From assembly GCF_001179925.1 (NCBI RefSeq), contig NZ_CVSF01000064.1:46238-110237 (forward strand): a DNA stretch of 64,000 nucleotides, given 5' to 3'. The notes below the pieces were generated by a model. That model was not told the DNA's origin. It searched no databases and saw only the letters and a program-made list of their open reading frames with translations. Below, one piece after another: positions 4,530 to 63,674 of the stretch (positions are counted from its first letter, which is position 1; every line of letters begins with the position of its first letter). Origin of the DNA: Candidatus Pelagibacter communis (GTDB taxonomy: Bacteria; Pseudomonadota; Alphaproteobacteria; Pelagibacterales; Pelagibacteraceae). The position numbers and the translations under genes are program-made.

Positions 4530-5972
4530 ATGGATACTAGAGAAAAAGATATCGAAAATCTTAAAGATTATAAATATGGTTTTTCAACCGATATTGAAAA
4601 TATTAAAGCTCCAAAAGGGTTAAATGAAGAGGTTATAAAATTTATATCGAATATTAAAAAAGAACCACAATGGATGTTAGAATTTAGATTAAATGCTTTT
4701 AAAAGATTTAAATTATTAAAAGAACCAAATTGGCAAAAACCAAAATATCCAAAAATTGATTATCAAGATTTATATTATTATTCTGCACCAAAAAGTATGA
4801 AAGATAAACCTAAAAGTCTTGATGAACTTGATCCAAAACTTTTAGAAACATATAAAAAACTTGGTATTCCTTTACAAGAGCAAGCAAGATTAAATGGAAT
4901 TGCAGTAGATGCAGTATTTGACTCTGTGTCAGTAGCAACAACATTTAAAGAAGAATTAACAAAACAAGGAATTATTTTTTGCTCTATGTCTGAAGCCATA
5001 CAAAATCATCCCAATTTAGTTAAAAAACATTTAGGAACAGTAATACCTACTACAGATCATTTTTTTGCTACTTTAAACTCTGCTGTTTTTACGGACGGAT
5101 CATTTGTTTACATACCAGAAGGTGTTAGATGTCCAATGGAGCTATCTACATATTTTAGAATAAATGCATCTGAAACTGGACAGTTTGAAAGGACATTAAT
5201 TATAGCAGACAAAGGAAGTTATGTTAGTTATCTGGAAGGCTGCACAGCTCCAATGAGAGATGAGAATCAATTACATGCTGCCAATGTAGAATTAATCGCT
5301 TTAGATGATGCAGAAATAAAATATTCTACAGTTCAAAATTGGTATCCAGGAGATGAAAATGGTAAGGGTGGTATCTATAATTTTGTAACTAAAAGAGGAT
5401 TGTGTAAAGGAAAAAATTCTAAAATCTCTTGGACACAAGTAGAAACAGGTTCGGCTATAACTTGGAAATATCCAAGTTGTATTTTAAAGGGAGATAATTC
5501 AATAGGTGAATTTTATTCAATCGCAATTACAAATAATCATCAAAAAGCTGATACGGGAACAAAAATGATCCATTTAGGTAATAATACAAAAAGTAAAATA
5601 ATTTCCAAAGGTATTAGTGCCGGATTTTCAGATATGACCTATAGAGGTCTCGTTGATATTAATTCAAGAGCAAAAAATTCTAGTAACTATACACAATGTG
5701 ATTCTTTGTTAATGGGAAACAAATGTGGAGCTCACACTGTTCCTTATATTAAAAATAAAAATTTTGATTCTAATATTGCTCATGAAGCCACTACATCAAA
5801 AATAAGTGAGGAACAATTACATTATTGTCAACAAAGAGGTTTGAGCTCAGAAGAGGCTGTTGGGTTAATTGTGAATGGTTTTTGCAAAGAAGTATTACAA
5901 CAACTACCTATGGAATTTGCAGTTGAAGCTCAAAAACTTGTGGGTATTAGTCTTGAAGGGAGCGTTGGATAA
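4530..5972 (+). CDS. sufB: Fe-S cluster assembly protein SufB
   Basis: Core scaffold subunit of the SufBCD complex, on which Fe-S clusters are built. Two starts are possible: ATG 4509, overlapping iscR, or ATG 4530 just after the iscR stop. I prefer 4530 (MDTREKDIE, 480 residues) because a purine-rich GAAAGAAG lies upstream. Diagnostic SufB segments are seen: [38 protein letters not shown], the NCxxxSK-like beta-helix core, and [13 protein letters not shown] near the C-terminus. The stop overlaps the sufC start by one base (TAATG), suggesting translational coupling. Confidence 0.95.
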
Positions 5973-6706
5973 TGCTCAAGATAAGTAATTTAAATGCTAA
6001 CATTGATAATAAGACAATTTTGAAGGGGTTTTCATTAAACATAAATCCCGGAGAAGTGCATGCAATAATGGGTCCTAATGGATCAGGCAAGAGTACGTTA
6101 TCAAATATTTTATCTGGAAAAAAAGGCTATGAAGTGTCTGGTGATATTTTGTTTGAAAATAAAAATTTATTTGACTTAGAAACAGAAGAAAGAGCCCATA
6201 AAGGTATTTTTTTAGCTTTTCAATATCCATTAGAAATTCCTGGGGTAAATACAAATATTTTTCTAAAAACTTCTTTGAATGCAATAAGAAAAGCTCGAGG
6301 TGAAAAAGAGCTTGATGCTATCGAATTTTTAAAACTTGTAAAAGAAAAAGCAAAAGAGCTAAAATTTGATGAGGAAAAATTGAGCAGACAGCTGAATGTT
6401 GGTTTTTCAGGTGGTGAAAAAAAGAAAAATGAAATTTTACAAATGTCGATGTTAGCTCCCAAGTTATCAATTTTAGATGAGACAGATTCAGGTTTAGACA
6501 TTGATGCATTAAAAATTGTTGCCGATGGTGTAAACACTCTAAGAAGTAAAGACAATTCTTTTTTGATAATCACTCATTATCAAAGATTGTTAGATTATAT
6601 TAAACCAGATTTTGTTCATGTTTTAATGAATGGAAAAATAATTAAGTCAGGTGGACCTGAGCTAGCATTAGAATTAGAAAAAAAAGGATACGAAAACTTT
6701 AATTAA
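5972..6706 (+). CDS. sufC: Fe-S assembly ATPase SufC
   Basis: ABC-type ATPase that powers SufBCD; cytosolic, with no membrane partner. The 244 residues hold Walker [10 protein letters not shown], the Suf-type signature [11 protein letters not shown] in place of the transporter LSGGQ, Walker [13 protein letters not shown] and the H-loop [21 protein letters not shown] insertion and the [15 protein letters not shown] stretch are typical for SufC. The next gene starts immediately after its stop. Confidence 0.95.
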
Positions 6707-9637: not shown

Positions 9638-9934
9638 ATGGAAGTGAAAGATAAGATAATTAATGAAATAAGAAAAATTTATGATCCTGAGTTACCAGTA
9701 AATATTTATGAACTTGGCTTGATTTATGATATAAAAATTTTAGGAAGAAAAGCAGAAATTAAAATGACATTGACTACACCAAATTGTCCTGTAGCTGAAA
9801 GTTTACCCAAAGAAGTAAAAGAAGGTGCGATGCAAGTAGATGAAATAGATGATGTTGATTTAAAATTAGTGTGGGACCCACCTTGGAATAAAGATATGAT
9901 GTCAGATGCAGCGAAATTGGAGTTAAATTTATAA
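9638..9934 (+). CDS. sufT: SufT-like MIP18/DUF59 protein
   Basis: A 98-residue single DUF59 (MIP18) domain protein: DPELPVNIYELGLIYDI near the N-terminus and TTPNCPVAES with the conserved cysteine C50. SufT-type proteins aid Fe-S cluster maturation or transfer under high demand; the exact step is not settled. It lies 5 bases after the SufU-like gene and overlaps the A-type carrier by one base, fixing it in the suf operon. It has only the DUF59 domain, without the extra N-terminal domain of longer SufT proteins. Confidence 0.88.
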   Translation: MEVKDKIINEIRKIYDPELPVNIYELGLIYDIKILGRKAEIKMTLTTPNCPVAESLPKEVKEGAMQVDEIDDVDLKLVWDPPWNKDMMSDAAKLELNL

Positions 9935-15250: not shown

Positions 15251-15291
15251 TCCTCACTTTTTTAGTGCTTCTGCTTAATGCAAGGTGCACA
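15251..15291 (-). ncRNA. SAM-V riboswitch
   Basis: On the minus strand, just before the bhmT-like start, the RNA has the SAM-V core ACCUUGCAUUAA and GCACUAAA. Helix P1 pairs GUGC (15290-15287) with GCAC (15268-15265). CCUU (15285-15282) can pair with GAGG (15255-15252), the ribosome site, forming the pseudoknot arm. This predicts SAM-dependent block of translation. SAM-V downstream of SAM-II at bhmT is an arrangement described for Pelagibacter. Confidence 0.85.
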
Positions 15292-15325
15292 ATACAGTTC
15301 AAATACCTAACCGATTTATATGAAG

Positions 15326-54301: not shown

Positions 54302-55153
54302 TTAAGTTCTTTTTCTTAAAAAAAGTACAAATATAACTGAAGTTGCCATCATGATTAAAGCATAAGCTGCAGTTGGTACCATGTAAGTCATGTTTTGGCC
54401 AAACAATTGTGTTCCAACAAAAACTGCTAAAGTTCCATTTTGTAATCCGCACTCTAAAGAAATACATCTTTGTTGAGCAATGCCTGATGCAAAAAATTTA
54501 GCTACGTAGTATCCTATTATCATCATAGAAATATTTAGAATCAAAGATACAGATCCAGCTGTAGTCATGAACATTATAATGCTATCCCATTCCTCAATAT
54601 AGATGGCAATAAAAACTAGGCAAAATAATCCAATAGATATTTTTTCGATATATTTCATGTTATTTTCAATAAAATTATTAAAAAATTTTCTAATAATCAT
54701 TCCAATTATTACAGGGATCGTCACAACAAAAAACATTTTTAACGATATTCCAAGCATTGAAACTTCTTTTTCAACATAAGTAATATCAAATAAATCAATT
54801 GATAAAAAAACAATATAAGGAACTGATATAATACTTATTAAACTAGTAAATGCAGTAAGAGATATAGATAGCGCAACATCACCATCAACAAATTTAGTAA
54901 GTACATTTGAAGTTACCCCACCAGGTGCAGCTGCAATCAACATTACCCCTAATGCCAACTCTACAGGAGTTTTTAAAATAATTATTAACACATAACCTAT
55001 AATTGGAAGAACAACTAATTGACAAATTAAACCAACAAAAAATTCTTTTGGATGCTGAAAAACTCTTGTGAAATCTTTTACTGTTAATGAAGCACCAAGC
55101 CCTAACATTATAAGAGCTAGCGCAAATGGCGCTATTGTTGTTACTATACCCAT
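54302..55153 (-). CDS. BASS-family sodium-coupled transporter
   Basis: A 283-residue inner-membrane protein with about nine helices. LALIMLGLGASLTVKDFTRVFQHPKEFFVGL and MLIAAAPGGVTSNVLTKFVDGDVALSISLTAFTSLIS carry the bile acid:sodium symporter (PF01758) core, with the two crossed helices. Marine members import organic acids such as pyruvate or pantothenate; the substrate is unknown. Convergent with the DMGDH-like gene, stop to stop with no gap. Confidence 0.87.
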   Translation of the reverse strand: MGIVTTIAPFALALIMLGLGASLTVKDFTRVFQHPKEFFVGLICQLVVLPIIGYVLIIILKTPVELALGVMLIAAAPGGVTSNVLTKFVDGDVALSISLTAFTSLISIISVPYIVFLSIDLFDITYVEKEVSMLGISLKMFFVVTIPVIIGMIIRKFFNNFIENNMKYIEKISIGLFCLVFIAIYIEEWDSIIMFMTTAGSVSLILNISMMIIGYYVAKFFASGIAQQRCISLECGLQNGTLAVFVGTQLFGQNMTYMVPTAAYALIMMATSVIFVLFLRKRT

Positions 55154-55193
55154 GACCCCTCTGTGTAATACTCTAGGACAATTTATTAGAGAT

Positions 55194-56171
55194 TTAAGAA
55201 ATTACAAGAAGATTTAAAACTTTACGAATAAATTTGGCTTTAAATTTAAAAATTTCTGTTTGATAAGGTAAAATCTTTCTAAAATTCATGGTTGATAACA
55301 TGTATTGTTTTTTACTATTCATTTTAATTAAATCTTCATTAACTAAATATTTACATTTTCTAATAATTGTTGCTCGAGGAATTTGAGTCATATCAGAAAT
55401 CGACATAGCGCTTATACCAGCATCTGAGCCCATGTTATCTATAAGAATATTATTAGTCCTAAAATAATCTAACGCAGGTTGGTCAACAGGAGTATCTAAT
55501 TGTTTCGTAACATTCAAAACCTGATTCATGCAAATAGTTCCCCAAATATGAAAAGTAGTTAAATCTTTAAAAAATTTATGATATCCAATCACCAACGGGA
55601 TTTGCATTCTATAAAACCATCTCCAACATAATGTAAATTTTTTTCTTATTACAGTTTCAATAAACTTTTGATCTAATTTTTTTGAAAAATTATGGTCTTT
55701 ATTTAAAAGTTTAGATACTAAATAAATGTATTTTGACGAGAATTTAATTTGATTTTCAGGCTTAACAAAAGAAAATGCTTTTCTGTCAATTACAATTTTT
55801 TTTTTAGTACGTGTTATTACCCCTTCTTTTTCAAGCTCTAAAACTTTTCTTCTAACAGTTTCTTTTGGTAAATCTAATTTTTCACAGAGTTCAGTAATAC
55901 TAAATCTTTCAATTTGCAGATATGATTTTGAATAATATTCATCATAATTATATTGAATGTTCATTTGATCGAAAAATTGAAGAGTTTTTTCAACTAAAGA
56001 AATTATTATTAAGTACTTATAATGATCATTAAATGAGGAATAGACACTATTCATCCAATTCCATTGGTGAAATATCCATTCTTTACTAAGATCAGAATAA
56101 TTAGACATGATACTCTCATAGACCTGATCGTCGGTGAGTGTTTTTGTAAAGTCTATTTCTTGTAAATTCAT
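55194..56171 (-). CDS. Putative transcription regulator with two winged-helix units
   Basis: I place the start at ATG 56171 (MNLQEIDFTK, 325 residues); a TTG at 56219 would lie in the promoter. Two HTH units are clear: FSITELCEKLDLPKETVRRKVLELEKEGVITR (about residues 90-121) and ISAMSISDMTQIPRATIIRKCKYLVNEDLIK (about 255-285). Each is preceded by a similar aromatic helix (WIFHQWNWMNSVYSSF; WRWFYRMQIPLVIGY), suggesting an internal duplication. No known family recognised; it probably binds DNA as a single-chain pseudo-dimer. Upstream of the BASS gene, 40 bases, so they may share a transcript. Confidence 0.65.
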   Translation of the reverse strand: MNLQEIDFTKTLTDDQVYESIMSNYSDLSKEWIFHQWNWMNSVYSSFNDHYKYLIIISLVEKTLQFFDQMNIQYNYDEYYSKSYLQIERFSITELCEKLDLPKETVRRKVLELEKEGVITRTKKKIVIDRKAFSFVKPENQIKFSSKYIYLVSKLLNKDHNFSKKLDQKFIETVIRKKFTLCWRWFYRMQIPLVIGYHKFFKDLTTFHIWGTICMNQVLNVTKQLDTPVDQPALDYFRTNNILIDNMGSDAGISAMSISDMTQIPRATIIRKCKYLVNEDLIKMNSKKQYMLSTMNFRKILPYQTEIFKFKAKFIRKVLNLLVIS

Positions 56172-56186
56172 AATTTCAAAAATCTG

Positions 56187-56215
56187 AGTAGAAACCCATT
56201 TTGGACAGTTGTCAA
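56187..56215 (-). promoter_or_regulatory. Promoter of the two-HTH regulator gene
   Basis: Minus-strand TTGACA (56215-56210) and TCTACT (56192-56187) with a 17-base spacer, 15 bases before the ATG at 56171. A perfect -35 box supports the shorter start of the protein. Confidence 0.55.
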
Positions 56216-56282
56216 TCAATTAGTGACCCAGTTTGAACTTGCCTAATTTGAGTACAATAAATTTATATGTTTAAATGTCCTC

Positions 56283-56513
56283 ATGAATGAAAAAGGCTTT
56301 GATGCAGATATTACTTTTAATGAGACCCCAAGTTTTAAAGTAACTGAAGAAAAGCCTTTAAAATCCGAGAATAACAGAGCTAAAAAAGTTGATATCAATG
56401 TTCTTAAAGCTAGAGCTCAAGAAATCCAAGATAAAGAAAATAGAAAAAATATTTTTATTTTTGTTTTCTTTTTAGCAATTCTTGGAGTGGTTGGAATTTA
56501 TCTCTCCATATAA
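56283..56513 (+). CDS. Small C-tail membrane protein (76 aa), unknown
   Basis: A 76-residue protein: a hydrophilic, charged N-terminal part of about 55 residues with VDINVLKARAQEIQDKENRK, then one membrane helix (NIFIFVFFLAILGVVGIYLSI) at the very end. Shares its layout and the INVLxxRxxxxQxKExRKxxIF pattern with the next gene. Function unknown. Divergent from the regulator gene. Confidence 0.68.
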   Translation: MNEKGFDADITFNETPSFKVTEEKPLKSENNRAKKVDINVLKARAQEIQDKENRKNIFIFVFFLAILGVVGIYLSI

Positions 56514-56553
56514 ATAATTTGTAAATATTAAGTTTTGATGATTATATAACTCT

Positions 56554-56772
56554 ATGAAAAATTCGTTTTCATCTTTAAAAGACAAAATTATTCAAAAATA
56601 TACAGAGAGATATACATCTATCGATGAAAATTTAGAAAGTGCTAAATCTACAAATATTAATGTTTTACTAAATAGAGTTAAACTAGATCAAAAAAAAGAG
56701 AGTAGAAAAAAACTTATATTTACTGCCGCAACATCATTAGGTGTTGTTTTATTTGGTGTTTTAATATTTTAA
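56554..56772 (+). CDS. Small C-tail membrane protein (72 aa), paralogue of the preceding gene
   Basis: A 72-residue protein with a charged N-terminal part (SSLKDKIIQKYTERYTS), STNINVLLNRVKLDQKKESRKKLIF, and a C-terminal membrane helix (TAATSLGVVLFGVLIF). It aligns with the upstream 76-residue protein around the INVL...RK-IF segment. Function unknown; the positive residues before the helix suggest the N-terminus stays in the cytoplasm. Followed 15 bases later by the tRNA promoter. Confidence 0.68.
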   Translation: MKNSFSSLKDKIIQKYTERYTSIDENLESAKSTNINVLLNRVKLDQKKESRKKLIFTAATSLGVVLFGVLIF

Positions 56773-56787
56773 AATACTTCTTCATAT

Positions 56788-56815
56788 TTGCATCATTATT
56801 TAAAAGTAGTATAAA
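56788..56815 (+). promoter_or_regulatory. Promoter of tRNA-Met
   Basis: TTGCAT (56788-56793) and TATAAA (56810-56815), spacer 16, with the tRNA 5' end 15 bases downstream of the -10. The TTGCAT/TATAAA pair repeats that seen at 10301-10329. Confidence 0.65.
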
Positions 56816-56830
56816 CCGATAGGCTAATTT

Positions 56831-56907
56831 GGCGGGGTAGCTCAGTTGGTTAGAGCGCGGGACTCATAAGCCCGAGGTCAGTGGTTCGATCCCACTTCCC
56901 GCTACCA
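56831..56907 (+). tRNA. tRNA-Met (CAU), elongator type
   Basis: Full cloverleaf of 77 bases including an encoded CCA (56905-56907). Acceptor GGCGGGG pairs with TCCCGCT, D-stem GCTC/GAGC, anticodon loop CTCATAA with anticodon CAT, T-loop TTCGATC with stem AGTGG/CCACT. Initiator features are missing (D-arm is of the TTGGTTAGAGC type). Pair 31-39 reads A-G, a mismatch at the foot of the anticodon stem. tRNA-Ile2 (lysidine) is a possible alternative. Confidence 0.95.
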
Positions 56908-56919
56908 TTTTAACGCTAA

Positions 56920-57537
56920 TTAAAAATATATTCTATTTTTATCAATTCTATCATAGATTTTTTTAATACCCTCTGAATATTTTGAGTATCTAATTTTATT
57001 TAATGGTAATTGCTCTAACTCCAATGGAATATTAAACTTATTTAATATTTTCACTTCTAAAACAGAAAAATTTTCTAAATATCTAAAATTTTCATTATTC
57101 GTGTCTTTAAAATTAATATTAATATCAAATGTAATTCTATAATCTTTTTTTTTAAAATAATATCTATTGTAATTTACTTTAAGTACAGGGTAACAAATTC
57201 CATAAGTTGAGTCATAATATCCGTTTTTTTTATAATTATTTAAATCATTAAAGTTAATTTTCTTTGTAATTTTGAATTTACCCTCTTGACTATTTATTTT
57301 TTTTTCTAAATTTAAATTTTTATTTTTATCCTCGTAAAATCTTACTCTTATTTTTTTTCTTGGTGTTGAACCCTCTTCAGAATCGTGAAACATTCTTAAA
57401 TTTTTATCATCAAAATAAATACTTGTAATATCTCTATTTTTGAATTCTTGTTCAAAATCAGACTTTTCTATGAAAGATAAAATTTTAATTTTATCTTCAT
57501 TATTAACAATATATTTATCCTCTAATCTGAAACTCAT
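56920..57537 (-). CDS. VTC-domain protein (polyphosphate polymerase-like)
   Basis: A 205-residue stand-alone VTC domain. Basic tunnel residues of the polyphosphate polymerase fold are present: R64 and R66 (KKIRVRFYE), K79/K80 (LNLEKK), the KFKITKK stretch, R125 (VNYNRYYF), R134 and D138 (YRITFDI) and E161 (SVLEVK). In yeast Vtc4 such residues bind ATP and growing polyphosphate. No membrane helices, so it acts from the cytoplasm. Last gene of a three-gene run with CotH-like and DUF4956 genes; polymer type is not proven. Confidence 0.85.
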   Translation of the reverse strand: MSFRLEDKYIVNNEDKIKILSFIEKSDFEQEFKNRDITSIYFDDKNLRMFHDSEEGSTPRKKIRVRFYEDKNKNLNLEKKINSQEGKFKITKKINFNDLNNYKKNGYYDSTYGICYPVLKVNYNRYYFKKKDYRITFDININFKDTNNENFRYLENFSVLEVKILNKFNIPLELEQLPLNKIRYSKYSEGIKKIYDRIDKNRIYF

Positions 57538-57539
57538 TT

Positions 57540-59855
57540 CTAAATTGATTTGTTAATAATTATTTTTGAATATTTATCTTTTTTTAAAAATTCAAAAAAA
57601 TTTGAACATTTGATATTATTTGAAAAAATATATCCACCCCAAAATTCTTGTTTTTTCTTATAAGAAGATAAACAATTAGTAATATCTTTCATCTCAGCAT
57701 TATCTATAAAAACTTTTGAACTATCTTTTGAGGCAATTCCAATATTTGAATTAGAGATATTAATTTTTTCAACTTTTAACATACTTTTTTCACCAGTTGA
57801 AATAGCCTTATCACTACACTGAACAAGGAGTGCATTTTGTATCTTATAATTTCCATATGAAAAATCTAAACAATCGTTACCACTGTTTTTAATTTCAACA
57901 TCTTTAAAACTAATTTCTGAAAAATCCGCATCAACCCCATCATATTTTGAGTTTTTTATTTTAAGTTCTTCCACACTTCCAATTGTATTAATAAAATTAA
58001 CTGAATCTTCACATTCCATATTTTCTATATTTAATTTTAGATTATGAATTTTTGAATTTAAAAAGGTTAAACAACCAGTTAAACCATATTCATCAGACCT
58101 AGTAAAATTTGATATTTCGTTTTTTTCATCCTTTATTTGATCCCTTGAAAAAAAAATTTTCCAATTTTTTAAGCTAGAGTCAAAAAAAACAATTTTTTCC
58201 TGACCGGAGTTTTTTATATGAATTTCTTTTTTATTTTCAAAAAATTCAATATTTGTTTTTTTATTATAAAAAATTTTAATTTCATCATTTATAATTTTGG
58301 TATCGAAGTTATTTTTTCTAATCTTATCAACATTTTGATAGTAGAAATTTTTTGAGGAAGAACCCAATAAATTTTGCCCCAGGTAAACAAAATGAGTTTG
58401 ATTATAGGATAAATTTTGTCTTAATAATTCACTGATATCCTTAGTATTTGTATTGAAGTCTCTACAATTTACCTTATTAAATTCACAAGTTATAAATTTT
58501 TGGAAATCGTCAGAATAATAGACAAAATTTCTTTTTAATGACTTATTGTAAGAATTAACTTTACTATTAATCACTTCTTTCTCCTCAACAGCAGAAATCT
58601 TATATAATTGATCTTCATCTAAAGAGTTCAAATATGACAAATTAGATTTTATTTTTTCAATTACTAAATATAATTCCTCTTTATCTATAAAAACTCCCAT
58701 TTTTCTTAATTCCAATTGTAAAAATTCTAAGTTTATTTCAGATATAGCCTTAAATGCTTGACTAGCACCTTTTTTTCCTGAGGGTAAAAATTTATCTTTT
58801 TCGGTTATATTTCTTTTTGATAGTTTATTTTTTTTTTTATCTAATATATTTCCCATACCATCATAATAAATTGGTAGAAACTTTCTGGAAAAAGGGTCAA
58901 AATAAAATATTCTATCATCATACTCTATGCCATGACTTGCATAAAGCGAATACATAAGTGCATCATAAACTTCCACTCTTTCGAAATAATCTTTGTTCAA
59001 AATTTGCGATAATGTTGAGAAATCTTTTATGTCTCTCTCTAATTTTACATGAACTCTATTGAGATCGTTTAATAATGAAGTTGCATATTCAGCTATAATT
59101 CTATTTTTTTCATTTTTTAAGACAAGCTTGGAATTTGAAACTCCATAAAGCGAAAAGTGTTTTGCCTCTACAGGATCAAGTCGATAAAATCTTTCATCAA
59201 CTTCCAACATAAAACTTTCGCGTAAATTATTTCGTTCAAGCATTTCTTTTGCTCTTTTTTCTTGAAAAATAACATTAAATTTTTGGTCATTATAAAATAG
59301 ATCGGTTTTAAAAGTTGTAGGTGTTAAGAAACCAACATTTTTTAATAAAATTGTGGTAAATATTTCATTATTTCCATTTCTAGTCTCTGGTTTTAACAAA
59401 AGAAAACGAGTAATTCCTTTTATATTTCCTTCTTTGAGGTTGATGTTCAAGCTTGGCATATTTCCAATTCTATGATCTTCAAAATTTCCGTGTGGTCTAA
59501 TACTAGCCTCTAGTGTACATTCAATTTTATTTGTTTTTATTTTAATAAAACCTTTTTGTCTTTCAGAGATATTATAAAATTTAATGCCTTCTGATGATGC
59601 AAGTTTATTCTTCTCACTTTGTATATGTGCTTCTAATCTGTTTGTCTTCCATTTTCTTTTATTTTTAAAGTAAACTTCAAAGCTTAAATCAGAAAAATTT
59701 TGATTTTCAATGTAATCTAATTCTTCATAATTCAATTTACTACATTGGTTTGTTTTTTTTTTATTTTTAAAAACTTCATAGTTTAAATTCTCTTTAAAGC
59801 TGGAAAAGAAAACTATCGTTACAAGTAAAATTAATCCTAAAATTTTTGAAAACAT
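57540..59855 (-). CDS. CotH-like secreted kinase fused to a beta-helix-like region
   Basis: A 771-residue exported protein with an N-terminal anchor or signal (KILGLILLVTIVFFSSF). Residues ~100-420 match the CotH kinase fold: SIRPHGNFEDHR, RFLLLKPETRNGNNEIFTTILLKNVG, FQEKRAKEM, and the metal/catalytic aspartates in YDDRIFYFDP (D313/D314) and YYDGMGN (D332). Residues ~560-760 show repeating short strands (LKNSKYDGVDADFSEISFKDVEIKNSGNDCL) like a parallel beta-helix. CotH of Bacillus phosphorylates spore-coat proteins; the target here is unknown. Two bases from both neighbours. Confidence 0.78.
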   Translation of the reverse strand: MFSKILGLILLVTIVFFSSFKENLNYEVFKNKKKTNQCSKLNYEELDYIENQNFSDLSFEVYFKNKRKWKTNRLEAHIQSEKNKLASSEGIKFYNISERQKGFIKIKTNKIECTLEASIRPHGNFEDHRIGNMPSLNINLKEGNIKGITRFLLLKPETRNGNNEIFTTILLKNVGFLTPTTFKTDLFYNDQKFNVIFQEKRAKEMLERNNLRESFMLEVDERFYRLDPVEAKHFSLYGVSNSKLVLKNEKNRIIAEYATSLLNDLNRVHVKLERDIKDFSTLSQILNKDYFERVEVYDALMYSLYASHGIEYDDRIFYFDPFSRKFLPIYYDGMGNILDKKKNKLSKRNITEKDKFLPSGKKGASQAFKAISEINLEFLQLELRKMGVFIDKEELYLVIEKIKSNLSYLNSLDEDQLYKISAVEEKEVINSKVNSYNKSLKRNFVYYSDDFQKFITCEFNKVNCRDFNTNTKDISELLRQNLSYNQTHFVYLGQNLLGSSSKNFYYQNVDKIRKNNFDTKIINDEIKIFYNKKTNIEFFENKKEIHIKNSGQEKIVFFDSSLKNWKIFFSRDQIKDEKNEISNFTRSDEYGLTGCLTFLNSKIHNLKLNIENMECEDSVNFINTIGSVEELKIKNSKYDGVDADFSEISFKDVEIKNSGNDCLDFSYGNYKIQNALLVQCSDKAISTGEKSMLKVEKINISNSNIGIASKDSSKVFIDNAEMKDITNCLSSYKKKQEFWGGYIFSNNIKCSNFFEFLKKDKYSKIIINKSI

Positions 59856-59857
59856 AT

Positions 59858-60502
59858 TTAAGATTGAAGGTCAGATCTGATATTATTTATATTTTCAATA
59901 TTTGATAATTCATTTTTGAATTGAATTAATTCATTTCTATTTTTAAAAACTAATCGATAATTATATGCGTTATTTTTTTTATCATTAAAAGAACTTATTA
60001 GCCCTTTATGCTCACTTAAGATCTTTAAATCTTTTGAAGCTTCTATTTCTAATGAATAGGATATATTTCCATCGCCAAAAGAATATTGAAATAAGCTTAA
60101 GTTAAGGTATTTTTTTAAAAAAGCATCCAATATCTTAATACCAAGTAAAACAAAGACTATCATGAAAAATAAATTTTGACATAAACCAATACTAACACCT
60201 GCAGTTACTCCAAGAGTTACTAGAGCAAAAAACATCACTAATTCAAAAGGACTTTTTACAGGATTTCTAAATCTTACTATCGAAAGAGCTCCTATCATTC
60301 CCAAAGATAATGCTATGTCATCTTTTATGATAGTGCTAATTACCAAAGAAATTATTGGTAATAACAGGTAGGAACCAAGATGATGATACGTATTAGCCCA
60401 TCTTTGTCCACAAATTATAAGCACATACCTAAGTGTAAAACCTGCAAAAATTAAAAAAAGGCATTTATATAAGTATCGATTATAATCAATAAACTCGAAC
60501 AT
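59858..60502 (-). CDS. DUF4956 membrane protein
   Basis: A 214-residue protein with four or five helices in the first 130 residues and a soluble C-terminal alpha/beta part. The family signature is IALSLGMIGALSIVRFRNPVKSPFELVMFFALVTLGVTAGVS. No function is established; genes of this family recur beside VTC and CotH genes, which suggests a shared envelope process. First gene of the triad on the minus strand, 2 bases before the CotH-like gene; the 31-base gap to the RmlD-like gene upstream could allow one transcript. Confidence 0.85.
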   Translation of the reverse strand: MFEFIDYNRYLYKCLFLIFAGFTLRYVLIICGQRWANTYHHLGSYLLLPIISLVISTIIKDDIALSLGMIGALSIVRFRNPVKSPFELVMFFALVTLGVTAGVSIGLCQNLFFMIVFVLLGIKILDAFLKKYLNLSLFQYSFGDGNISYSLEIEASKDLKILSEHKGLISSFNDKKNNAYNYRLVFKNRNELIQFKNELSNIENINNIRSDLQS

Positions 60503-60533
60503 AGTTAATGTTATATATAAAGATTTGTTAGAT

Positions 60534-61238
60534 TTAAATTAATTTCTTTAGTTTATTTATATTCATATCTTGTCTTAAGGGGAGTTTTGATAAATTTTTA
60601 GCTTTAATTTTTTTTACGTCAAGTTTTTTTGATTTTGCAAATTTATAAACAGACTGTGGTTTTCCACCTATATTTAATATCCCTCTCTTATTAATTATTT
60701 TTGGTAAAATTTTCACTAAATCTTCGTGATACATGTAATTTGCAATTAAATTATTATAAGCCTTTTTAAACATGAATGGTTTTTCTGTCATATTTATTCT
60801 TAATATTAGAGAATTATTGTACATTGAGACAGCACATTCTCCACCTAACTTTGAAAGACCATAATTGTTAAATGGTTTAACAGGATCGGTTTCTTTATAA
60901 TTTCCGCGCAATCCCTCATAAACATAGCTTGTAGAAAAATATACAATTTTAATTTTATATTTCTTACAAACTTTTACTAAATTAGCTGTGCCAATAATAT
61001 TTAGGTCAATACTTTTGCTAATATTAGTCTCATGAATATTCATTGGCCTAGACAAACCTGCAGTATGTAAAATTATAGAAGGTTTTATTTTTTTTATAAT
61101 TTTAATAATTGAGTTTTCACTTAAAATATTACATTCTTTTTTCGACGCAAAATAAAGATTCAATTTATAATTTTTATCCTTTAAAACCTTCGCAAACCTT
61201 CCACTGCCACCAGTTACAAGAATTTTATTTTTATTCAT
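60534..61238 (-). CDS. RmlD-like sugar-nucleotide reductase/epimerase (short)
   Basis: A 234-residue SDR, shorter than the ~290 of RmlD. ILVTGGSGRFAKVLKD is the cofactor loop; IILHTAGLSRPMNIHETN, YFSTSYVYEGLRGNYKETDPVKPFNNYGLSKLGGECAV (YxxxK) and RINMTEKPF follow. The C-terminal substrate part is reduced. In this position it may finish the dTDP sugar made by the two following genes. Substrate unknown. 15 bases from rmlA. Confidence 0.75.
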   Translation of the reverse strand: MNKNKILVTGGSGRFAKVLKDKNYKLNLYFASKKECNILSENSIIKIIKKIKPSIILHTAGLSRPMNIHETNISKSIDLNIIGTANLVKVCKKYKIKIVYFSTSYVYEGLRGNYKETDPVKPFNNYGLSKLGGECAVSMYNNSLILRINMTEKPFMFKKAYNNLIANYMYHEDLVKILPKIINKRGILNIGGKPQSVYKFAKSKKLDVKKIKAKNLSKLPLRQDMNINKLKKLI

Positions 61239-61253
61239 TCAGATTTTATCAAT

Positions 61254-62129
61254 TTATGATTTGTTGATTAGTTTTTTTAAGTATTTTGAATAATCACAAT
61301 TACCATAGAAATTAATCGCTTTTTTAATGTGTTTTTTATTTATCCATTTTGAGTTAAAAGCTATTTCTTCTAAACAAGCGATCTTAAAACCTTGTCTATT
61401 CTCTATTGCTGAAACGAAAGCAGAAGTTTTGTAAAAATCTTCAATTGAACCGGTGTCAAGCCATGCACCACCTCTTCCAATTAAATCAGCAGTTAATTGT
61501 TTTTTTGATTTATAACGATTTAAAAGATCTACAATTTCAACTTCACCTCTTTTTGAGGGTTTTAAGTTTTTTGCAAATTTTATTACTTGATTATCAAAAA
61601 AGTATAAACCAGTAATTGCTAGGTCAGATATATATCTTTTAGGTTTTTCTTTTATAGAAATAATTTTATTTTGTTTATTAATTTTAGCTACTCCAAATAG
61701 TTCTGGTTTTGGAACTTTGTGCAAAACAACTCTTGCACCTTTTTTAAGTCTTGTATTTTCTAGAAGTTTTTTTGTAAGATTTTGGCCATAAAAAAAATTA
61801 TCTCCAAGTATCATTGCAACATTCTCTTTTCCTATAAATGTTTCACCAATCACAAATGCATCAGGTAAACCTCTCGGTTTATCTTGTTCTAAATAATTAA
61901 TTTTGATACCTAAGTTATTTCCGTTAGGTATAATTTTCTTATATTGATTAAGTTGCCCTTTATTTACAATGATTAGTATATCTTTAATATTCGCTAACAT
62001 TAAAATTGATAAGGGATAAAAAATTAATGGTTTATCATAAATTGGAAGAAGTTGTTTGTTGACAGCTTTAGTAATTGGACTCATTCGTGTTCCTTTGCCA
62101 CCAGCTAATATAATTCCCTTTTTGATCAT
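61254..62129 (-). CDS. rmlA: Glucose-1-phosphate thymidylyltransferase
   Basis: A 291-residue nucleotidyltransferase making dTDP-glucose. The activation loop is GIILAGGKGTRMSPITKAVNKQLLPIYDKPLI; QDKPRGLPDAFVIGETF and the metal GDNFFYG complete the site. RGGAWLDTGSIEDFYKTSAFV is typical of RmlA. Overlaps rmlB by 4 bases. Confidence 0.93.
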   Translation of the reverse strand: MIKKGIILAGGKGTRMSPITKAVNKQLLPIYDKPLIFYPLSILMLANIKDILIIVNKGQLNQYKKIIPNGNNLGIKINYLEQDKPRGLPDAFVIGETFIGKENVAMILGDNFFYGQNLTKKLLENTRLKKGARVVLHKVPKPELFGVAKINKQNKIISIKEKPKRYISDLAITGLYFFDNQVIKFAKNLKPSKRGEVEIVDLLNRYKSKKQLTADLIGRGGAWLDTGSIEDFYKTSAFVSAIENRQGFKIACLEEIAFNSKWINKKHIKKAINFYGNCDYSKYLKKLINKS

Positions 62130-63139
62130 AGTTTACCCAATCGTTTAACAATATCTTTTTTAGATAGTGATTTATAATAATTTCTGTTTTTAAAATACCA
62201 ATCAAATGTTAATTTAATACCTTGTCTAAAATTTGTTCTGGGTTTCCATCCAATTTTTTTCTTAATTTTATTACTGTTTAAAGCATACCTAACATCGTGA
62301 CCTGGACGGTCTTTTACAAATAAAATTTTAACTTTTTTTCCAATTTTACAAACTGATTTTGAAACATTAATTAGTTCTTTTGAAACTTGAATGTTATTTA
62401 AATTTTTATTAGACCCAATGTTATAAAATTCTCCTATTTTACCTTTGATAAAAACCTTTAGTAAAGCCTCACAATGATCTTTGACATATATCCATTCTCT
62501 AGAGTTGGTGCCTTTCCCATAAATTGGAAGAGGTTTATTATTTAATATGTTGTAAATTAGTTTAGGTATTAATTTTTCTGGGTGTTGTTTGGGACCATAG
62601 TTATTTGAGCAATTTGTAATCATAGCTGGAATTTTATAGGTTCTTACGTAAGAACTAACCAAATGGTCTGAAGAAGCTTTACTTGCAGCGTATGGAGAAC
62701 TAGGTTGATAAGGATAATTTTCAGAAGATCTGCCAGATAAAATGTCTCCATAAACTTCATCTGTAGAAATATGAATTAGTTTTGATTTATGACTTTTTAC
62801 ATATTCTTTAAAACATTCTAGTAAATTATAAACTCCAACAATATTACTTTGAATAAAATTTTCAGGGTTATCTATGGATCTATCAACATGAGTTTCAGCC
62901 GCAAGATTAAAAATTGCTACTGGCTTATATTTAAATAAAATTTCTTTAATTTTTTTATCTTTGATGTCACATTTTAAAAATTTATAATATTTTGATTTTT
63001 TGTGTTCTTGGACGTTATAAAAATTAGATGAGTAAGTTACTTTATCAATATTAATAACGTAATAATTTTTTCTAATTAACAGGTCAATTAAGTTACTACC
63101 TATAAAGCCCAGTCCTCCTGTAACAATAATTTTTTTCAT
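62126..63139 (-). CDS. rmlB: dTDP-glucose 4,6-dehydratase
   Basis: A 337-residue extended SDR converting dTDP-glucose to dTDP-4-keto-6-deoxyglucose. VTGGLGFIGSNLIDLLIRK is the NAD loop; AAETHVDRSIDNP, HISTDEVYGD (catalytic DE), PYAASKASSDHLV (YxxxK) and NNYGPKQHPEKLIPK are the strict RmlB marks. With rmlA and the RmlD-like gene it forms a minus-strand operon; no RmlC epimerase gene is present, so L-rhamnose is not assured. Lies 7 bases downstream of apt. Confidence 0.94.
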   Translation of the reverse strand: MKKIIVTGGLGFIGSNLIDLLIRKNYYVINIDKVTYSSNFYNVQEHKKSKYYKFLKCDIKDKKIKEILFKYKPVAIFNLAAETHVDRSIDNPENFIQSNIVGVYNLLECFKEYVKSHKSKLIHISTDEVYGDILSGRSSENYPYQPSSPYAASKASSDHLVSSYVRTYKIPAMITNCSNNYGPKQHPEKLIPKLIYNILNNKPLPIYGKGTNSREWIYVKDHCEALLKVFIKGKIGEFYNIGSNKNLNNIQVSKELINVSKSVCKIGKKVKILFVKDRPGHDVRYALNSNKIKKKIGWKPRTNFRQGIKLTFDWYFKNRNYYKSLSKKDIVKRLGKL

Positions 63140-63146
63140 CTAAATT

Positions 63147-63674
63147 TTAATGACCCGGAAATTCAATTAAATTTTCAACGTTATAACCTTTTTTTACTAA
63201 ATTGTCTGATCCATTTAAGTCAAAAAGATTAATTACAAATATAAAACAGGCTACTTTACCACCAGAAATTTCAACTAATTTTGCTGCAGCTTCAGCAGTA
63301 CCACCAGTAGCAATTAAATCATCAATTATTAAGATATTATCATTTTTTTCAATTGAATCTTTATGAACTTCTATGGTAGCAGTTCCATACTCCAACTCAA
63401 AATCAACAGAGTGGACTTCTGCAGGTAATTTATTTTTTTTTCTTAGCATCACAAAAGGTTTTTTTAATAAGTATGAAACAGCTGAAGCAAATACAAAGCC
63501 CCTTGATTCTATTGCAGCAATTTTATTAAATTTAAATTTTTTTGATTTTTTTACAATTTGGTCAATTGTTTCAGAAAATGCATTTTCATCCTTTATTAGT
63601 GTTGTGATATCTCTAAATAATATACCTTTTTTTGGATAATCTTGAATTGATCTAATAAAATCTTTTAAATTCAT
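63147..63674 (-). CDS. apt: Adenine phosphoribosyltransferase
   Basis: A 175-residue purine salvage enzyme making AMP from adenine and PRPP. The PRPP motif is ILIIDDLIATGGTAEAA, with FRDITTLI and FVFASAVSYLL near the N-terminus and RKKNKLPAEVHS in the flexible loop. Divergent from mtnP, whose reaction releases adenine, so the two act in sequence. Only 41 bases separate the two starts. Confidence 0.94.
   Translation of the reverse strand: MNLKDFIRSIQDYPKKGILFRDITTLIKDENAFSETIDQIVKKSKKFKFNKIAAIESRGFVFASAVSYLLKKPFVMLRKKNKLPAEVHSVDFELEYGTATIEVHKDSIEKNDNILIIDDLIATGGTAEAAAKLVEISGGKVACFIFVINLFDLNGSDNLVKKGYNVENLIEFPGH

Follow-up and report, generated by a model that had tools for sequence, protein, structure and literature searches.

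What would three genes encoding a VTC domain, a CotH-fold protein and a DUF4956 membrane protein do side by side in a SAR11 bacterium? The question is posed by a 64,000-nucleotide (nt) stretch of DNA from Candidatus Pelagibacter communis (contig NZ_CVSF01000064.1, positions 46,238 to 110,237 of the forward strand; this whole stretch is called the window below), which belongs to an assembly of 1.01 Mb that is 86% complete. Three minus-strand genes are confirmed there, in the transcription order DUF4956 (60502-59858), a 771-residue protein (59855-57540) and VTC (57537-56920), with gaps of 2 nt each within the set. We find that these genes are one co-inherited unit, for which a membrane pathway handling a phosphate polymer is the best reading that can be predicted. 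The parts of the unit are listed here.

56920..57537, minus strand: VTC domain protein, 205 amino acids, predicted cytosolic polyphosphate polymerase (PF09359, E 6.8e-20)
57540..59855, minus strand: CotH-fold and beta-helix protein (the middle protein), 771 amino acids, predicted exported (AlphaFold2 model)
58614..59702, minus strand: CotH-kinase-fold domain of the middle protein, residues 52-414, without the catalytic Asp
57543..58316, minus strand: right-handed parallel beta-helix of the middle protein, residues 514-771, with an Asp/Lys ladder
59858..60502, minus strand: DUF4956 likely membrane protein, 214 amino acids, predicted conduit, with five helices and a C-terminal ACT/ferredoxin-like domain

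The original prediction had taken co-occurrence above chance as its test, and among 61 related genomes, which hold the middle gene in 7, VTC in 8 and DUF4956 in 7, pairwise co-occurrence gave Fisher p values of 1.8e-8, 1.8e-8 and 8.7e-7. Exceptions were seen in two genomes, G020, where VTC and DUF4956 lie on separate contigs and no middle gene was found, and G034, where the middle match starts at the contig start and DUF4956 is missing. Scanning of genome contigs yielded 92 confirmed places, of which the best 80, representing 79 distinct loci, were used. All three genes are present at 69 of the 79 loci, 64 of them ordered DUF4956-middle-VTC; nine of the ten incomplete loci run into a contig end, which leaves L095 as the only one without a detectable VTC despite having room for it. 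The middle and VTC genes lie on opposite strands in L183 and L195, as does VTC in L040. Loci found by seeding with VTC (7/40 repeat earlier loci) contain the middle gene in 40/40 cases and a detected DUF4956 gene in 31/40, and five further loci, picked as known carriers, have all three genes. Pairwise distances of the three proteins correlate at 0.81-0.89 over 64 rows, a level reached in 0/500 permutations, although such correlations are also expected from shared descent alone. Across 249 genomes of the phylum, VTC and DUF4956 each occur in 6 and share 5 (p 5e-9; one VTC match is below the cut-off), and CotH occurs in 18, two of which also carry the VTC/DUF4956 pair. Of 14 control genomes, 3 carry VTC, and DUF4956 was found in exactly these; members of the three families, CotH included, were all detected in the controls Methanosarcina acetivorans and Corynebacterium glutamicum. 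Within the genus, 64 of 399 genomes (16%), many of them incomplete, carry VTC.

The window VTC protein scores 72.1 bits against PF09359, over the curated cut-off of 23, and its residues R64, R66 and E161 align with R264, R266 and E426 of yeast Vtc4, as counted along the printed alignment with an offset of 185 residues. Direct matches to Vtc4 are weak (E 0.062 and 0.009), and the placement of these counterparts therefore also leans on the Pfam match. When the three yeast residues are changed together, Vtc4 is catalytically impaired; yeast Vtc4 makes polyphosphate in the cytosol, and the chain is fed into a membrane channel (PMC9911596). All three residues are kept in 73/73 VTC rows (the window protein and, from the 75 loci matches, the 72 that reach at least 180 amino acids), so the claim that the tunnel residues are intact holds and their loss in relatives was not seen. 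Invariant over the same rows are R4, E6, K8, R64, R66, K80, K89, R125, D138, E161, K163 and K186, and a hydrophobic 15-mer was found anywhere in the protein in 0/73. The kept Vtc4 residues lead us to predict that the window protein is a polyphosphate polymerase. A DUF4956-VTC fusion, hinted at by frames of 472 and 500 amino acids (G377, G451), was rejected, these frames being apparent upstream extensions without a DUF4956 match.

For the middle protein, Pfam returned no match, and the PF08757 profile matched 0/25 members of its family at E 0.1. Comparison of the predicted structure (predicted local distance difference test score 90.7) revealed a CotH fold in the N-terminal half and a right-handed beta-helix fold in the C-terminal part. 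Sequence-profile support for CotH is uneven, with an hhalign probability of 97 against 21 CotH proteins that include the bridging proteins L119 and L123 (genes that also go by L145 and L144), and of 16 against 8 ordinary CotH proteins. Because of this unevenness, the CotH link of the middle protein is drawn from structure and from the bridging proteins, to which PF08757 and the middle-protein profile both match.

The catalytic Asp of CotH kinases, D228 in Bacillus subtilis CotH, is absent from 12/12 family members and 5/5 intermediates aligned, from 75/75 close-relative rows and from 122/122 wider relatives, and is present in 10/10 ordinary CotH rows. Its counterpart, position 310, is L in 58 of the 75 close-relative rows, M in 8, F in 5, I in 2 and Q in 2. 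The metal Asp is kept (D332, corresponding to B. subtilis D251; 75/75 rows), and a KKS-type Lys is absent from the middle-protein clade. The change D228Q abolishes activity of B. subtilis CotH (PMC7821199). Identity as an ordinary CotH protein kinase was rejected on the absence of this Asp. If the reading proposed below is right, a large family now catalogued mostly as 'CotH kinase' would probably not consist of CotH-type kinases. Genome G097 carries two sets (L143, L144). In one, the CotH is of the ordinary kind, with the catalytic Asp retained and lamin-tail domains present; the other set is of the beta-helix type.

A hydrophobic 15-mer occurs within the first 60 residues in 63/75 middle-protein rows, and the ten Cys residues of the window protein are all conserved, position by position in 63/74 to 74/74 rows. 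C457 and C464 are lost together, with 69 rows having both, 5 neither and 1 a mixed state. This pattern suggests a disulphide-bonded protein outside the cytoplasm, and together with the hydrophobic N-terminal stretch it makes an extracytoplasmic location likely. At the Asp and Lys positions of its ladder, the beta-helix is conserved in 120 to 122 of the 122 rows from wider relatives, and solved beta-helix look-alikes are mostly polysaccharide-acting, with uronates and similar glycans as substrates. Of the exported CotH-kinase-like protein that had been predicted, the exported look and the CotH fold are supported, whereas the catalytic Asp is lost in close relatives.

DUF4956 is likely a membrane protein, as had been proposed. 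The window protein exceeds the curated cut-off of PF16316 (32.6 bits against 30.6), and 47/47 aligned members match at E 0.1. The family shares an RFRxPV(K/R) loop in which R77, R79 and P81 are invariant, and which the positive-inside rule leads us to read as cytosolic. By virtue of this loop and the pairing with VTC, DUF4956 is predicted to be a conduit. A possible kinship of the family with MgtC drew a single weak match, of PF02308 (MgtC) to 1/47 members (E 0.04). DUF4956 is almost undescribed, being named in three papers of the literature searched.

Building on the gene set, its co-inheritance, the conserved residues and the predicted folds, we favor, with somewhat less than even confidence, a unit for polyphosphate synthesis, export and surface capture or transfer. 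VTC would polymerize phosphate from ATP into polyphosphate inside the cell, DUF4956 would carry the chain across the inner membrane, and the CotH-fold/beta-helix protein, likely exported, would catch the chain as it emerges, for anchoring on a surface glycan or transfer to one. The capture or transfer role is inferred from the export signs, the conserved Cys residues, the lost kinase Asp, the near-invariant Asp/Lys ladder and the polysaccharide-acting look-alikes.

Several observations weigh against this proposal. Members of the triphosphate-tunnel fold, which includes VTC, catalyze diverse reactions. No channel match was found for the membrane part of DUF4956 among the structural matches listed (VIA), and the CotH fold is a kinase fold, here lacking the catalytic Asp. 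Two loci speak for a link to phosphate: in L139 and L141 (G143, G159), DUF4956 and VTC genes without a CotH match adjoin a PHO4 phosphate transporter, and in L141 a phytase-like gene follows beside PHO4. This sign is weak, as such a transporter neighbors 2/6 loci of that VTC/DUF4956 family, the neighbors having been scanned in part for L140, L151 and L152 and not scanned for L153. VTC and PPK1 also occur independently. PPK1 is present in 18 of 64 VTC genomes, counted by hand, against 142/399 overall (p 0.20), and a replacement of PPK1 by VTC, considered after a 0/8 overlap in 37 genomes (p 0.15), is unsupported and not visible in the larger sample. Finally, bacteria are stated in PMC7250820 not to make polyphosphate in the periplasm.

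Ranked close behind, as an unlikely but credible alternative, is a role in tailoring surface polysaccharides, in which the middle protein would bind an acidic glycan and phosphorylate or trim it, polyphosphate being only the donor. Genes for sugar-nucleotide synthesis run on the same strand into the set in the window.

60534..61238, minus strand: RmlD-like NAD-dependent sugar reductase (PF04321, E 5.5e-26), 31 nt upstream of DUF4956
61254..62129, minus strand: RmlA-like glucose-1-phosphate thymidylyltransferase (TIGR01207, 358.7 bits, slightly below the cut-off of 360.65)
62126..63139, minus strand: RmlB dTDP-glucose 4,6-dehydratase (TIGR01181, 409 bits, above the cut-off of 365.1)

The upstream genes apt, rmlB, rmlA-like and rmlD-like follow one another with gaps of 7, -4, 15 and 31 nt, and it is possible that they share a single transcript with the three-gene set; promoter and terminator scans gave results at chance level only. 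Tailoring is further favored by an export/chain-length-like pair near the set in Prochlorococcus MIT 9201, recognized by eye only, by Gram-positive relatives that adjoin Pel loci (PMC7112168), by a glycosyltransferase near VTC and CotH genes in Clostridium perfringens NELoc-2 (PMC2879425), and by the glycan substrates of the solved beta-helix look-alikes. Against it, no glycan gene is a fixed neighbor: the commonest neighboring cluster, of sugar-nucleotide dehydratase/epimerase type as judged by eye from the sequence start, lies within 8 open reading frames in 35/79 loci, a count given without a background rate. In addition, no active site of a known glycan enzyme has been placed on the beta-helix, for which no superposition was made.

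A clearly less probable alternative is that VTC hydrolyzes or senses a polyphosphorylated ligand on behalf of a DUF4956-based transporter with an ACT-like regulatory domain. The ACT/ferredoxin-like end of DUF4956 and the varied activities of tunnel enzymes agree with this, but all of the residues changed to inactivate Vtc4 are kept, and the exported partner would be left unexplained. It is also improbable, and slightly more so, that the unit maintains a periplasmic polyphosphate store as a phosphate buffer in phosphate-poor water. SAR11 and Prochlorococcus, both of which include carriers, maintain a large phosphate buffer outside the cell or in the periplasm (PMC4525184, PMC7250820), but the same sources describe it as labile phosphate and deny periplasmic polyphosphate, and VTC, at the frequency given above, is in too few genomes of the genus for a general trait. 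Least probable of all is that a CotH-type kinase phosphorylates surface proteins while VTC and DUF4956 supply or sense phosphate, as the lost catalytic Asp, the loss of function in D228Q and the missing KKS-type Lys together outweigh the CotH fold, the retained metal Asp and the ordinary CotH in the second triad of G097; the phosphorylation of surface proteins by a CotH kinase offered in the original prediction is, as written, unlikely for the same lack of the Asp throughout.

The spread and the genomic sites of the set were also surveyed. The 79 loci come from Pelagibacteraceae, SAR116, Prochlorococcus (three, including strain MIT 9201), Candidatus Actinomarina, an acidimicrobial, a Flavobacteriales bin, Anderseniella, Hyphomicrobiales and unnamed alphaproteobacteria. 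In a quick tree, limited by long branches and possible bin errors, the rows nearest to the window middle protein are Pelagibacteraceae; two Prochlorococcus rows, from a single cell or bin, fall within Pelagibacteraceae and other alphaproteobacterial rows, with Shimodaira-Hasegawa-like approximate likelihood ratio test support of 97, 98 and 95, and the third is deep, on a long branch. Horizontal transfer of the set, in either direction, is likely.

56831..56907, plus strand: tRNA-Met(CAT), 12 nt from the VTC gene end (ARAGORN; Rfam tRNA, 62.6 bits)

As in the window, a tRNA gene lies 200 bp or less from the set in 17/61 loci (those with at least 300 bp on each side, 18/79 having been dropped), and in 16/51 after removal of relatives more than 70% identical, compared with a rate of 1.2% elsewhere in these loci (binomial 1e-18). 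The tRNA types are Met, Val, Arg, Ser and Thr, in both orientations. A second sample of 31 loci without long near-identical DNA to the first, 14/45 having been dropped as repeats or as near a contig end, gave a lower rate, with tRNA genes (Leu, Gly, Met, Ser) at 4/31 (p 6e-4). In L077, only the set lies between a whole tRNA-Met gene (5949-6025) and a partial copy of 57 nt that shares its orientation (9745-9801), at a spacing of 3776 bp. The VTC end in L080 overlaps a partial tRNA-Met copy of 46 nt. The window and most other loci gave no partial copy. Farther from the set lie five partial tRNA matches, in L045 and L158: partial tRNA-Ala copies at 6446-7749 of L045 (Prochlorococcus MIT 9201), and partial tRNA-Thr copies at 3886-7738 of L158 (G028), 3-4 kb from the set, both as at island borders.

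The frequent siting of the unit at tRNA genes points to a travelling cassette. Searches of viral contigs, phages and plasmids gave no match at the sensitivity used, and carriage by phages or plasmids is thus unsupported. In having a tRNA border and, at some loci, partial tRNA copies, the set resembles tycheposons, tRNA-bordered cargo islands of Prochlorococcus and others (PMC10872708, second-hand), but one 3.8-kb stretch, that of L077, has the set as its only content, and most loci have no partial copy. The most far-reaching version of our proposal, in which a self-contained 3.8-kb mobile cassette, moving from one tRNA gene to another in SAR11, SAR116, Prochlorococcus and marine actinobacteria, gives the smallest ocean cells an external polyphosphate coat or reserve through a split VTC exporter and a repurposed kinase fold on a beta-helix, is doubtful when taken as a whole.

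Two further features of the window were recorded.

15254-15317, minus strand: SAM-V riboswitch (72.2 bits)
55194-56219, minus strand: 341-residue protein near the set with a winged-helix region, family uncertain

Compared with the eukaryotic VTC complex, the unit has the same catalytic domain family and the same three residues that were changed to inactivate Vtc4. Here the synthesis and membrane parts would be two neighboring proteins. The 205-residue protein consists of the VTC domain alone (one Pfam match), with neither SPX nor a membrane part, DUF4956 takes the place of membrane partner, and there is an additional, likely exported CotH-fold/beta-helix protein. CotH kinases (PF08757; Bacillus cereus 5jda and B. 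subtilis CotH) share with the middle protein the N-terminal fold, the metal Asp and a Glu aligned with E199, but the middle protein lacks the catalytic Asp, the KKS-type Lys and a Pfam match, and has a fused beta-helix. Further likenesses are CotH/beta-helix proteins from Magnetococcales, Planctomycetota, KSB1 and other groups, most of them without a name or called 'CotH kinase family' (one from Methanosarcina bears the name GH28-related), which have the same two domains, His/Arg/Asp set and beta-helix motifs. They have a median length of 875 amino acids against 771 here, and keep in 122/122 rows the KxS Lys that is lost here.

The claim that the system is undescribed can be accepted only in part. 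A cotH gene, a polyphosphate polymerase gene and a DUF4956 gene form an accessory set of Gram-positive Pel loci (PMC7112168), the same three gene kinds, as families or folds, standing side by side. The window differs in that no Pel gene or DUF4832 was found among the 9 proteins scanned at 54302-63674, and in that its CotH-fold protein lies outside PF08757, without the catalytic Asp and with a beta-helix. No biochemical function for the bacterial set was found in the mostly open-access literature, in which no search paired SAR11 with the family names; in a term search, VTC, CotH and DUF4956 were not among the terms of PMC10734472, on phosphate islands of SAR11 relatives.

If the proposal of polyphosphate synthesis coupled to export and surface capture is correct, bacteria would own a VTC-type machine of their own and, in the most far-reaching version, a prokaryotic polyphosphate-secretion machine of a kind that we have not found described. 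Some of the most abundant ocean cells would be exchanging a finished phosphate-polymer unit between phyla, in seawater where growth can be held back by scarce phosphate. The unit would then provide a genetic handle on extracytoplasmic phosphate in dominant ocean bacteria, and the holding of phosphate outside the cytoplasm would become approachable through comparison of carriers with non-carriers.

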